Positions 40,524-52,405 of a DNA stretch of 64,000 nucleotides are shown here, one piece after another. Position 1 is the first letter of the stretch, and the number at the start of each line of letters is the position of its first letter. Location of the stretch: contig DASTAW010000033.1 of NCBI GenBank assembly GCA_035712365.1, positions 62,001 through 126,000 of the forward strand, written 5' to 3'. The stretch comes from Terriglobia bacterium. Lineage in GTDB: Bacteria; Acidobacteriota; Terriglobia; UBA7540. The notes beneath the pieces are model-generated. The model ran no database searches and was not told where the DNA came from. It saw only the letters and a list, made by a program, of their open reading frames with translations. The position numbers were made by a program, and so were the translations under genes.

Positions 40524-42035
40524 CTAAAACAAATTTCCCTGGTCGCGGTCGGCGGGATAATCGATTTCGTCGCGCAGGGGGCCGCTGAGGCTGAAGCGGG
40601 CGTGGTCTTCCTGGATGACGAGCCGTCTTGAAAGCTCCTGGAGCAGGCTTTCGGTGAATTCTATCGGCCGCTCGATGACGCGCGCCAGTTGGCCGACGTC
40701 CGCCTGGGGCGTTCTGTGCAGGTGTTTGAGGACCAGCAGGCTTTCGAGCCGCGTGAATTCTGTTCCCCGGTAGCGGATGAATTGGGCGAAGTTGGCGTCT
40801 GTCTCGAGCGGAACCAGGGCGGTGAATGCTTCGGGATTGCCGTCGAAATAGGGGAAGTCGTGCCCGGAGGCCACGGCCTCCTGGTAGACGATGTCAATTC
40901 CGCTGCCGCTCTTCTCACAGAAGCCGAGCAGGGACGCCGCCTCGGTCAGCAAGGGGTTTCGGTGCACAGGGCTGGCGTTGATGAGGTTTCGAGGGCCGAG
41001 GTTGCGGAGAAAGCCACCGGGGTTCTGAATTTCGAGCAGATGGTCGGGCGTGATTCGTACGTTGACGGGCTCCGAAGAGCGATAGGAGCGGTGGAGCAGC
41101 GCGTTCACCATCAGTTCGCGCAGGCACCTTTCGGGAAGTGACGATGCCGTGAGGGCCGTAATGTCTCCCCGGCACGTCCACAAATCCCGGAAAGTGTCGG
41201 CAATGTTCTGCTGGATGTGGGTGGTGTACGGCTCTGGAGAAGCGCTGCCTGAGCCATTGACAGTGACCCGCAGAAATGCGGATCCCGACACTCGGGACAG
41301 GAACTCCCTGGCGCCGAACAGCAGCGCCGCCGCCAGCGTAAGCGCGGGGCCTGTTCCGCGCGGGCTGACAAGATTGAAATCCACCAGCAGGTCTTCAATG
41401 GAGCGCCCGGATTCCCGCCAGCGCTGCGGCTGCCGCGGGCGCACGACCTGGTTGGTAAAAGCCCAGTCGAGTGATTCCTCTGAAAGGCTCTCGATGCCTG
41501 CGCCGTCCAGCAGAACGCTGGTGTAGTCTTCCTGGGATGCCAGATGGTCCACCTCGCAGCGGCCGCCGCGCCGGATGAGGCATACGCCCTGATCGGTCCG
41601 GTGCATGCCGGCGATGGCCCTTCTGGGCACGAGCAGGACAACGCACTGTTGCGCGGCAGCCGGCGTGGCCGGCACTGCTTCACCCAGCCGGCAGGCGGCG
41701 CATTCCACTGCAGGATGGCTGTGGCTTCGAACCGACTCCTGCAACCACTCCGGGGTGACATTTTCGTGCGGGCACGGCGCCGCCTCTTCGATCAGGCGTT
41801 CCGGATCAAGGCCTAGCAGGACAATTCCGCCTTCCGCATTGGCCAGACAGACGGCGGCATCGGCGGCCTCTTTCTCAAGCTGGTTCCTGCTCTCGCACCA
41901 CCCTTTGACCTCAAGAATACCTCTCTCCACATGGACGGGCGGAGCAGCACGCAAACGCTCCACGAAGCCCGGGAGGCGCCCAAGCAGTTCGTAGGGTGTC
42001 ATCGGCATCCCAAATTGCTGAAAAATTGTTGTCAC
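40524..42035 (-). CDS. AlbA_2/Schlafen-like ATP-binding regulator
   Basis: A 503-residue protein with an N-terminal AlbA_2 (Schlafen-like) domain (LEVKGWCESRNQLEKEAADAAVCLANAEGGIVLLGLD), a middle region (DWAFTNQVVRPRQPQ) and a HATPase_c_4-type module (RCLRELMVNALLHRSYRSSEPVNVRITPDHLLEIQNPGGF, GFCEKSGSGIDIVYQEA). A winged-helix segment lies near the C-terminus. Such proteins are commonly called ATP-dependent transcriptional regulators; some take part in defence. It is alone on the minus strand. Confidence 0.78.
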   Translation of the reverse strand: MTTIFQQFGMPMTPYELLGRLPGFVERLRAAPPVHVERGILEVKGWCESRNQLEKEAADAAVCLANAEGGIVLLGLDPERLIEEAAPCPHENVTPEWLQESVRSHSHPAVECAACRLGEAVPATPAAAQQCVVLLVPRRAIAGMHRTDQGVCLIRRGGRCEVDHLASQEDYTSVLLDGAGIESLSEESLDWAFTNQVVRPRQPQRWRESGRSIEDLLVDFNLVSPRGTGPALTLAAALLFGAREFLSRVSGSAFLRVTVNGSGSASPEPYTTHIQQNIADTFRDLWTCRGDITALTASSLPERCLRELMVNALLHRSYRSSEPVNVRITPDHLLEIQNPGGFLRNLGPRNLINASPVHRNPLLTEAASLLGFCEKSGSGIDIVYQEAVASGHDFPYFDGNPEAFTALVPLETDANFAQFIRYRGTEFTRLESLLVLKHLHRTPQADVGQLARVIERPIEFTESLLQELSRRLVIQEDHARFSLSGPLRDEIDYPADRDQGNLF

Positions 42036-45534: not shown

Positions 45535-47946
<2,412 letters not shown>

Positions 47947-48079
47947 CAAGTATGAGTGTTCCGGCTCTCGCAGAGAATCAAGGTCGATTGATTTGGGTTT
48001 CCGTGTATGCCGGTTTGTTGCCTTCTGTGCTAGACTGATCCATCCTTTGCCACAAGCTTACGGAGACTAACATTCGCTC

Positions 48080-48817
48080 ATGACTGAAGTCTTCCCTAAG
48101 GCACCAATCACCGAAGCGCTCATCGACGTCAGAACCCAACTTCCTCAGGATGTTTCACTAGATAAACTAGAGGCACTGCATGACTGGGTCAGGGTTGAAT
48201 ATCCCGAAAAGCAAAAACGCACAATGTGGGAGGGTCTTTTTGAGCTAAAGAACGAGAAGGATCCCCTTACTACGTCTCGACATCAGCTTGTCGGCTATTT
48301 GTTCAGGAGCGCGGATGGGACCCAGGCAGTCCAGTTTCGCCTTGATGGTTTCACTTTTAGTCGGCTTCGACCATACACTCGATGGGAACAAGTGTTTAGT
48401 GAGGCAAAAAGGCTTTGGGACATCTACAGAGTCCACGCGAAGCCTGTTCGTGTGAATCGACTTGCTACGCGGTACATAAATTCCATTGAGATTCCATTTA
48501 AGAAATTCGACTATGATGACTACTTCACAATGGCTCCCAAAATGCCTAATGGCCTACCGCAGGTGCTCACACACTTCTTCACGCGTGTCGTGGTGCCCTT
48601 CCCCGAAGAGGGAGTTACTGCGATAATCGCCCAAACCCCGTCCGAGAAGCCCGACCCGATCAAGTCGTCTGTTATTCTCGATATAGATGTCTTTAAGGAG
48701 GTAAGTCTCTCGCCGGAAGATGCAAAGATCGATGAGATACTTGCTATACTGAGGAAGGTCAAGAATGCGATTTTCTTTGGAAGTATAACCCCCAAGACTA
48801 AGGAGCTCTTTCGATGA
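48080..48817 (+). CDS. TIGR04255-type protein
   Basis: A 245-residue protein with the start APITEALIDVRTQLPQDVSLDKLE, the FRLDGFTFSRLRPYTRWEQVFSEAKRLWDIY core and VRVNRLATRYINSIEIPF, which match the sporadically distributed family TIGR04255. The function of the family is not known to me. Base composition is clearly lower in G+C than that of gyrB and gyrA (for example 22 of 60 bases in 48481-48540), which suggests horizontal acquisition. Its stop overlaps the next start (ATGA), so the two genes are coupled. Confidence 0.78.
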   Translation: MTEVFPKAPITEALIDVRTQLPQDVSLDKLEALHDWVRVEYPEKQKRTMWEGLFELKNEKDPLTTSRHQLVGYLFRSADGTQAVQFRLDGFTFSRLRPYTRWEQVFSEAKRLWDIYRVHAKPVRVNRLATRYINSIEIPFKKFDYDDYFTMAPKMPNGLPQVLTHFFTRVVVPFPEEGVTAIIAQTPSEKPDPIKSSVILDIDVFKEVSLSPEDAKIDEILAILRKVKNAIFFGSITPKTKELFR

Positions 48818-49314
48818 ACGCCCCTTTAGAAATCACCCCCTACGACCTAGGAAACTTGTGGTTGCCAGTGGGCATCAGCAGCGAGGCGGAAGAGACTACT
48901 AGGCAACGCGCGAAGGAATATGGTCCGGATCGGCAAACTCCCGCATCTTTTGCATGGAGGGACTTACTAATCGAGGAGATCGCGGAGATTCTGCAGACCT
49001 GTTCCGTACGCGATTGGGATGGTTATGGTGGAGAGCCCGTTTCGCACGTCTCAGGTCATCGGGCAGTTGAGGTGGTCAGAAGTTTGCCTGAAGGGATTCA
49101 ATGCCCAACCGTCGTGCCAGAACCTGACGGAGACATTGCGCTCGAATGGCAGACCGAAGACAATCGTCTCTTTTCCATGAGCGTGACAACGGCAACGCTG
49201 GTGTACGCCGGGAGATTTGGGGGATCATCCAGGCAGTATGGAGAGGAGCCGTTCTTTGGAGCAATACCTCGAACAATTCTGGATATTCTTGCTCGGCATT
49301 TTCCTTCGGATTGA
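48814..49314 (+). CDS. Hypothetical protein, partner of the TIGR04255 gene
   Basis: A 166-residue protein of unknown family. It has no signal or membrane segment. Notable segments are VRDWDGYGGEPVSHVSGHRAVEVVRSLPEGI and VVPEPDGDIALEWQTEDNRLFSMSVTT, the latter like a beta-rich domain. It starts 4 bases inside the upstream gene and lies in the same low-GC block. Genes with WDGYG-type words next to TIGR04255 genes are consistent with a conserved pair, but I cannot verify this here. Confidence 0.7.
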   Translation: MNAPLEITPYDLGNLWLPVGISSEAEETTRQRAKEYGPDRQTPASFAWRDLLIEEIAEILQTCSVRDWDGYGGEPVSHVSGHRAVEVVRSLPEGIQCPTVVPEPDGDIALEWQTEDNRLFSMSVTTATLVYAGRFGGSSRQYGEEPFFGAIPRTILDILARHFPSD

Positions 49315-49378
49315 TTGGACCTCTCGGGTCGTCTCCCTGGACGAGCGCATATCCCGATATATTGTTAATAAGCATCAC

Positions 49379-49705
49379 ATGAAAAAGCGCATATCACCCG
49401 CCGCATTCATGCCAAGGACTGGATGTACCTCTGTTTATCGAACCACTGGTTGCGCCGAGAAAAGGGTCTGGCTCTTAGGCCTTCTCTTTGTGGAGCGCAA
49501 ACGTAGAGACAATGTCAAAATTTTGGGCCGAGCGGATCTGGGCTCCAAAATTGTATTTGATGAGGGTCTCAACATTCGCCCTTCGCTGGGCCCTCATCCT
49601 CGTCACGCTAATCTAATCGGCTGGCCCGAGGACAAGGCCGAGCAGAAGGACAAAGCTGCGGCATTGGCACAGGCCGCTGCCCTTGTTCTTCGGCCGAAAC
49701 CCTAG
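49379..49705 (+). CDS. Hypothetical protein, third gene of the TIGR04255 module
   Basis: A 108-residue protein. The frame is open further upstream to 49217, but the start MKKRISPAAFMPRTGCTSVYRT at 49379 looks like a genuine N-terminus. The C-terminal part has GPHPRHANLIGWPEDKAEQKDKAAALAQAA. No family is recognised. It follows the second gene by 64 bases on the same strand and precedes gyrA by 186 bases. A three-gene operon with the two upstream genes is inferred from spacing and composition. Confidence 0.55.
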   Translation: MKKRISPAAFMPRTGCTSVYRTTGCAEKRVWLLGLLFVERKRRDNVKILGRADLGSKIVFDEGLNIRPSLGPHPRHANLIGWPEDKAEQKDKAAALAQAAALVLRPKP

Positions 49706-49891
49706 GGATTACAGACCTCCTGGACACCCCCATGCTTTATAAGCACGCCGTCCGCGAGGGAGTATGCTGACCTGTACCGTGGCGATCCGCATGTTAGAAT
49801 GGAAGTTATTCTTACTCCGGGTGCAAACCACAAATTGTGGGCAGATACCACACGAAACGTAAGCAGCAAGAAAACATAACGGGACGTACTT

Positions 49892-52405
<2,514 letters not shown>

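Follow-up and report, generated by a model that had tools for sequence, protein, structure and literature searches.

What is the role of three small genes that stand between the two gyrase genes of a Terriglobia bacterium? They lie on contig DASTAW010000033.1 (assembly GCA_035712365.1), in a stretch of 64,000 nucleotides that is called the window below; the host genome, of 4.67 Mb, belongs to the Acidobacteriota. All three are read from the forward strand between gyrB (45538-47946) and gyrA (49892-52405): gene 1 encodes a protein of the TIGR04255 family, and genes 2 and 3 follow it (Table 1). Since the third gene belongs to a recognised toxin family at several other TIGR04255 loci, we favour, with moderate confidence, the view that the block is a mobile tripartite toxin-antitoxin cassette. 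In what follows, L-numbers denote the loci and G-numbers the genomes that were compared, while A1 and A4 are protein alignments made in this analysis.

Recurrence of the operon and exchange of partners

Gene 1 is a clear member of its family, scoring 141.5 bits against the NCBIfam model TIGR04255 (curated cut-off 30) and covering model positions 2-251 of 252, and it is the only such gene in the host genome. The NCBIfam record, sporadTIGR04255, states no function, and a full-paper literature search, with subscription papers and preprints outside its reach, found no paper naming TIGR04255 or describing a modular operon. Within the phylum, the family was present in 39 of 396 genomes; among the 41 phylum loci examined, a homologue of gene 2 stood directly 3′ of TIGR04255 in 13 and a homologue of gene 3 was present in 8. 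A scan of 84,980 genomes with alignment A1 gave 80 TIGR04255 loci; a genome scan with the single window protein as query had given no matches. The order TIGR04255-middle-third was found in the window and at nearly all loci. The distance from gene 1 to the middle gene was -4 in 78 and -1 in 11 of the 115 loci with a middle open reading frame (ORF). The pair of genes 2 and 3 followed TIGR04255 in about eight phyla (Acidobacteriota, Nitrospirota, Planctomycetota, Pseudomonadota, Chloroflexota, Gemmatimonadota, Fidelibacterota (Neomarinimicrobiota) and SAR324), and homologous third genes were recovered from 33 or more loci. At a betaproteobacterial locus (L103:7977-9221), TIGR04255 and gene 2 were fused in one ORF that kept the N-terminal segment of gene 2 discussed below, and gene 3 followed 21 nt downstream without a change of frame. 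An earlier, sequence-only reading of the window had taken the tight coupling of the genes as a sign of a functional unit. Both the overlapping operon conserved across phyla and the L103 fusion bear this out, and TIGR04255 was not a family found alone, as that reading had allowed, but almost always the first of three coupled genes. A gene 3 profile gave 7 strong matches in the 396 genomes, all adjoining TIGR04255, a result that is partly circular since these very loci had supplied the sequences of the profile; one partial match (G104) apart, the search of these genomes detected no clear gene 3 that lacked TIGR04255 as a neighbour. The gene 2 domain does occur away from TIGR04255 (G131, G115, G342 and G108).

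Where genes 2 and 3 were absent, different middle and third genes occupied their places. We typed the third gene by profile and motif at 115 usable loci, 7 further loci ending at a contig edge. The gene 3 family accounted for 35 of them, DUF7689 for 27, a protein with the motif TQSCDL/SQDCDL (CDL) for 21, HEPN-like proteins for 5, and PemK, PIN and HicA-like proteins for 2 each; the remainder comprised an A2 type (6), an RRIHP..SV type (4) and 11 unassigned genes. The toxin matches in the third (or second) position included PemK (PemK/MazF) at L056 (5.8e-19) and PIN at L040 (1.7e-11) and L061 (7e-8). A zeta toxin match (3.1e-12) was obtained at a Vibrio plasmid locus, with an uncharacterised gene between. 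The HEPN matches (Pfam 0.009-0.027, PADLOC 0.0011) and the HicA match (0.038) were weak. At another TIGR04255 locus, one middle protein carried an Xre-like helix-turn-helix (HTH), which is an antitoxin domain. One example of the DUF7689 third genes matched its Pfam family with an E-value of 6.2e-43. Such genes were seen across many phyla (L096, L085, L077, L150 and more than 20 further loci); their conserved YNCIAWA, HAARQL and WTSKLG motifs resemble those of a Cys-His enzyme, and a literature search found no publications on the family. The CDL protein was likewise a frequent third gene (L114, L037, L041, L289 and others), at some of these loci preceded by a middle gene with an HTH, and had no Pfam match.

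In a tree of 101 TIGR04255 proteins, the type of partner changed at least 17 times, against a mean of 57 after shuffling and a least possible number of 8. Several sister pairs had different partners: L055 (HEPN) and L060 (gene 3; support 100/98), L145 (DUF7689) and L149 (gene 3; 100/95), L040 (PIN) and L049 (CDL; 100/99), and L051 (PemK) and L042 (CDL; 100/96). Judged from this tree, partner types cluster and yet swap at well-supported forks, which shows that entire middle-plus-third cassettes have been exchanged behind a constant TIGR04255.

Acquisition of the block and its reading frames

The sequence-only reading had described the block as AT-richer than its neighbours and as probably acquired, and the composition agreed with this. 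Its GC content was 51.2% against a window mean of 58.5%, which places it among the lowest 1.3% of 1626-bp windows, and GC at third codon positions (GC3) was 0.53-0.56 in the block genes versus 0.75-0.78 in gyrB and gyrA. In two genomes of the same genus (G396 and G397), whose gyrA N-termini were 96-97% identical to that of the host, the gap between gyrB and gyrA measured 40-50 bp and thus represented an empty site. Alignments with the empty sites L184 and L185 broke directly 3′ of the gyrB stop codon and just 5′ of gyrA. The empty sites in two same-genus genomes, together with the GC3 shift, therefore support the view that the three-gene block is an acquired insertion. Two other metagenome-assembled genomes of Acidobacteriota (L071 and L072; gene 1 65-66% identical) carried the module at the same site. 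In the gyrB-gyrA gap of the same-family genomes G400 and G401, we noticed small gene pairs that by eye resemble Phd/PIN (L188) and AbrB/Doc (L191). With these other toxin-antitoxin-like pairs in the gap, the site seems a preferred landing place, and it is possible that it is a favoured one for toxin-antitoxin genes.

That the small frames are translated, a point on which the sequence-only reading had allowed for failure, was apparent from a comparison with L071, the reference for all codon-position counts (proteins 60-66% identical). The differences at codon positions 1/2/3 numbered 64/42/150 in gene 1, 42/37/107 in gene 2 and 42/27/74 in gene 3, and the ratio of nonsynonymous to synonymous substitution rates (dN/dS) of gene 3 was 0.17. 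This distribution over the codon positions shows that all three genes are translated and under purifying selection. The 4-base overlap reported earlier for genes 1 and 2 was confirmed, as gene 2 starts within the stop codon of gene 1 (ATGA at 48814). The frame of gene 3 has no ATG where one would be expected; a TTG at 49256 stands 3′ of the Shine-Dalgarno-like sequence GGAGAGGAG, and L071, the nearest relative, keeps both this sequence and the TTG, with an ATG after the TTG. The TTG at 49256 is therefore the likely start of gene 3 on sequence grounds, with the ATG at 49238 as the alternative; from the TTG onwards, the last 59 nt of gene 2 would also belong to gene 3, read in a different frame. 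Starts at ATT 49310 or ATG 49379 were considered and rejected, the upstream coding stretch and the Shine-Dalgarno sequence being conserved.

Predicted folds and the N-terminal segment of the middle proteins

The AlphaFold2 (AF2) model of TIGR04255, with a mean predicted local distance difference test (pLDDT) score of 87.3 and a predicted template modelling (pTM) score of 0.83, was a pseudo-symmetric saddle in which a strand-helix-sheet-helix unit occurs twice. The best VIA-align matches of the model were the catalytic domains of guanidino kinases (Z 9.6, 184 residues, 3.9 Å), followed by S-adenosylmethionine (AdoMet) decarboxylase and the TATA-binding protein (TBP), which are saddle folds of dissimilar function. 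The invariant residues of the family were P9, E12, W113, R131, N134, P139, D201 and K228. A SecB fold, suspected from the strand order, appeared in neither structure-match list, and TIGR04255 had no Pfam match to SecB, although a distant relation to SecB is conceivable. None of the three alignments gave a usable match when searched against the sequences of the Protein Data Bank.

Genes 2 and 3 were folded as a single chain, their frames joined by a four-letter codon; this was a modelling device, and no frameshift is claimed. For the gene 3 part, the only listed matches were KptA/Tpt1 tRNA 2′-phosphotransferases (Z 7.4-8.1, about 90 residues, 2.5-3.5 Å; one more entry at Z 5.2) and an Xre-RES toxin complex (Z 4.4). 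KptA/Tpt1 and RES are families with the ADP-ribosyltransferase fold, and the order of strands and helices in gene 3 agreed with that of the matched folds. The most conserved residues among 33 gene 3 homologues (A4) were R8, S33 and H91, which fall on strands 1, 2 and 5, the strands on which ADP-ribosyltransferases keep their catalytic residues; to our knowledge, the combination R/S/H is not among the classical triads of these enzymes. On the strength of this model, we consider the chances that gene 3 has an ADP-ribosyltransferase fold to be evenly balanced.

In the model of gene 2, the C-terminal part was confidently folded (pLDDT above 90), whereas residues 1-50 reached only 38-71, so that the extension predicted to be disordered is N-terminal. 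Similarity between the different middle proteins was largely confined to the first 50 residues, in which a motif resembling G-[ISV]-[SG]-x-E-[AS] recurred. We scored N-terminal profiles against shuffled sequences in which the first six residues were preserved. The profile of type A gave a mean of 3.5 on the N-termini of type B versus -0.9 on the shuffled ones (p 6e-10), and the reverse test, with the type B profile on type A N-termini, gave p 7.5e-10. Type C N-termini behaved more weakly (p 1.4e-3), and L086, a middle protein of a CDL-type locus, matched the type B profile with 22.8 bits. By analogy with the chaperone-addiction region of SecB-type antitoxins (see below), the N-terminal segment of gene 2 would look like a binding tag for TIGR04255.

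Function of the cassette and its relation to known systems

In a toxin-antitoxin cassette, gene 3 would be the toxin, probably a KptA/RES-like enzyme with the ADP-ribosyltransferase fold, which would act on NAD+ or add ADP-ribose to nucleic acid or protein, and gene 2 would be the antitoxin or adaptor that binds the gene 3 product. TIGR04255 would serve as the constant, dedicated stabiliser: on emergence from the ribosome, the N-terminal tag of gene 2, predicted to be disordered, would be bound by the saddle sheet, and this binding would keep the antitoxin folded and protected. Loss or dilution of TIGR04255, or its capture by a protein of an invader, would lead to the degradation of gene 2 and release gene 3. 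We infer toxicity, neutralisation, tag binding, the trigger and enzymatic activity alike. That TIGR04255 acts as a chaperone-like stabiliser is a tentative proposal, which we hold with slightly more doubt than belief. A bolder version, which we regard as rather less probable, would make TIGR04255 the founder of a second, SecB-unrelated class of toxin-antitoxin-dedicated chaperones or guards, which would recognise a short N-terminal tag common to otherwise unrelated antitoxins. Many toxins (ADP-ribosyltransferase-like, PemK, PIN, zeta and HEPN) would in this way share a single control, which competition for the saddle by a protein of an invader might lift.

Several observations weigh against this picture. 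Strong toxin matches are few, and most third genes lack a known function. The support for binding between TIGR04255 and gene 2 is limited to one fusion and to synteny, and the N-terminal motif is weak: the profile scores failed to reach significance in two sets of middle proteins, A2 and 'other', and the control residues 60-110 also differed slightly from their shuffles. A Z-score of about 8 for gene 3 is barely above the background for unmatched models, and hhalign of gene 3 against RES (PF08808) and KptA (PF01885) gave no signal, a comparison without power since RES against KptA gave none either.

The surroundings of the loci bear on the choice between addiction and defence. Where the three-gene pattern occurred on plasmids, it was found on conjugative elements, and on the plasmid of Pantoea sp. 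Lij88 (L290) a TIGR04255 three-gene set lay within a prophage, between lysis genes and terminase, a position typical for phage-carried accessory genes (moron-like). No relatives of gene 3 were detected on plasmids by tblastn, and no TIGR04255 was found in phage records. Some loci adjoined a ThiF/multiubiquitin locus, VapC genes or a Fic gene, and four modules lay in or beside restriction loci (L035, L033, L058 and L181). At L058 and L181, the latter an IMG/VR contig, the full module had restriction-modification-like genes on one side and, on the other, a large helicase-like gene starting 'DFRIADTFTDSLARL' or 'DVRIADTFTDSLAKL'. The PADLOC count of defence enrichment was modest and, with listings restricted to the top 25 families, does not amount to a formal test: the 131 flanking ORFs included 4 type I methyltransferases, 3 type III methyltransferases and 3 specificity subunits, whereas no restriction-modification family was among the top 25 families listed for 131 control ORFs. 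Neither TIGR04255 nor gene 3 is represented by a PADLOC model, and gene 2 alone matched, weakly, the candidate PDC-M32A. At L167:814-2291, the gene 2 domain forms the end of a 366-aa protein, which is followed by a gene 3-like protein; a restriction-type gene adjoins the two, and TIGR04255 is absent. This pair is perhaps the PADLOC candidate PDC-M32. Overall, these contexts fit mobile conflict genes, and addiction and phage defence are both compatible with them.

The sequence-only reading had suggested either a toxin-antitoxin-like or a defence system. The former is favoured by the toxin third genes, while the latter draws weak support from the minority of loci beside restriction-modification genes. 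In a phage-defence arrangement, TIGR04255 would be the sensor of a protein or nucleic acid from an invader, with gene 2 as an adaptor and gene 3 as an effector that stays inactive until triggered, with no resting antitoxin. The restriction-modification neighbours missing from the listed control families, the moron-like position in Pantoea and the weak match of the gene 2 domain to PDC-M32A speak for such a sensor-effector system. Nevertheless, we consider it unlikely, as most loci lie outside defence islands by the flanking-gene test, PADLOC models neither TIGR04255 nor gene 3, and the toxins recognised in the third position work without a trigger.

It is improbable that TIGR04255 is itself an enzyme with the downstream genes as its substrates or regulators. 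Its predicted fold does come nearest to the guanidino-kinase catalytic domain, with Z up to 9.6 over 184 residues for arginine and taurocyamine kinases and McsB. However, the identity is 7%, the unrelated saddle folds of TBP and AdoMet decarboxylase match as well, the invariant residues were not matched to kinase catalytic sites, and the downstream genes vary while TIGR04255 stays constant. The low-GC insertion and the non-ATG start of gene 3 could belong to a decaying selfish remnant without present function, but three open, overlapping frames under purifying selection, with the start of gene 3 and its Shine-Dalgarno sequence conserved in L071, make this very improbable. The position between gyrB and gyrA in the host, L071 and L072 might suggest an accessory operon that regulates or protects gyrase. 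This idea is largely refuted and has barely any credibility left, since two same-genus genomes lack the module at this site and its homologues stand in unrelated surroundings, among them plasmids and virus-like contigs.

The closest known counterparts of a tripartite toxin-antitoxin cassette are the SecB-type toxin-antitoxin-chaperone (TAC) systems, in which one chaperone family accompanies different toxin-antitoxin pairs (HigBA-Rv1957, HicAB and MqsRA types) and the chaperone-addiction region can be grafted onto other proteins and works at the N-terminus too (PMC5105189). The cassette shares with them a constant protein family beside varied pairs and an extra antitoxin segment, here predicted to be disordered, which in TAC is the graftable one. 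It differs in that the constant protein is TIGR04255, of about 245 aa instead of about 150-180 and without a SecB sequence match; in that the constant gene comes first and not last, the TAC order being toxin-antitoxin-chaperone; and in that the extra segment of gene 2 is N-terminal, whereas the chaperone-addiction extension of TAC is C-terminal. The cassette would work in the manner of TAC and CmdTAC, but the different constant protein, gene order and tag end speak against classing it with the TAC systems. CmdTAC, composed of CmdT, CmdA and the SecB-like CmdC, couples a three-part arrangement to an ADP-ribosyltransferase and to phage sensing (PMC11618068). It resembles the cassette in its three genes, its ADP-ribosyltransferase-fold toxin (here predicted) and its partly disordered antitoxin, but gene 3 is far smaller, with KptA/RES as the nearest folds, and the constant protein has no SecB-like sequence. 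The weak fold match of gene 3 to the RES toxin and the Xre-like HTH in some middle genes elsewhere recall Xre-RES systems, from which the cassette is set apart by the lack of a sequence match, by a gene 2 without HTH and by three genes instead of two. In common with type II toxin-antitoxin systems, it has a coupled gene 2-gene 3 operon, an overlap kept in many phyla, and recognised toxins in the same slot elsewhere. Finally, the gene 2 domain has a similar counterpart (E 5.7e-5) in the C-terminal part of the PADLOC candidate PDC-M32A, at positions 275-352 of 375, but PDC-M32A does not adjoin TIGR04255.

Taken as a whole, the cassette appears to represent a type of three-part toxin-antitoxin system that is widespread but undescribed and is built around a family that is annotated, yet unexplained, on chromosomes and plasmids of many phyla. 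If this is true, 'hypothetical' neighbours on an estimated, uncounted scale of several thousand would gain a role, the middle protein as antitoxin and the third as toxin, and this role would extend to two large uncharacterised families, DUF7689 and the CDL protein. It could also mean a new group of toxins with the ADP-ribosyltransferase fold, and the dependence of an antitoxin on a dedicated partner would have evolved more than once.

Table 1. Features of the three-gene block, with positions in the window
Feature	Position	Strand	Basis or remark
Gene 1, TIGR04255 family, 245 aa	48080..48817	+	NCBIfam E 4e-41; constant first gene of the module
Gene 2, 166 aa, WDGYG domain, proposed antitoxin/adaptor	48814..49314	+	Homologues directly 3′ of TIGR04255; purifying selection
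N-terminal segment of gene 2, residues 1-45	48814..48948	+	Predicted disorder and one helix; motif here GISSEAEE
Shine-Dalgarno-like sequence of gene 3, GGAGAGGAG, within gene 2	49240..49248	+	L071 has a sequence of this type at the same place
Gene 3, 149 aa from TTG 49256, proposed toxin/effector	49256..49705	+	Homologues, dN/dS, predicted ADP-ribosyltransferase-like fold
Out-of-frame overlap of genes 2 and 3, 59 nt	49256..49314	+	Long overlap also in L043, L050, L059 and L071
Inserted block, approximate extent	47947..49865	.	Alignment with empty sites L184 and L185; right edge +/- tens of bases

Elsewhere in the window, near dnaA, the reverse strand at 40524-42035 encodes a 503-aa protein, the start of which by eye resembles AlbA_2/Schlafen-like DNA-binding proteins.
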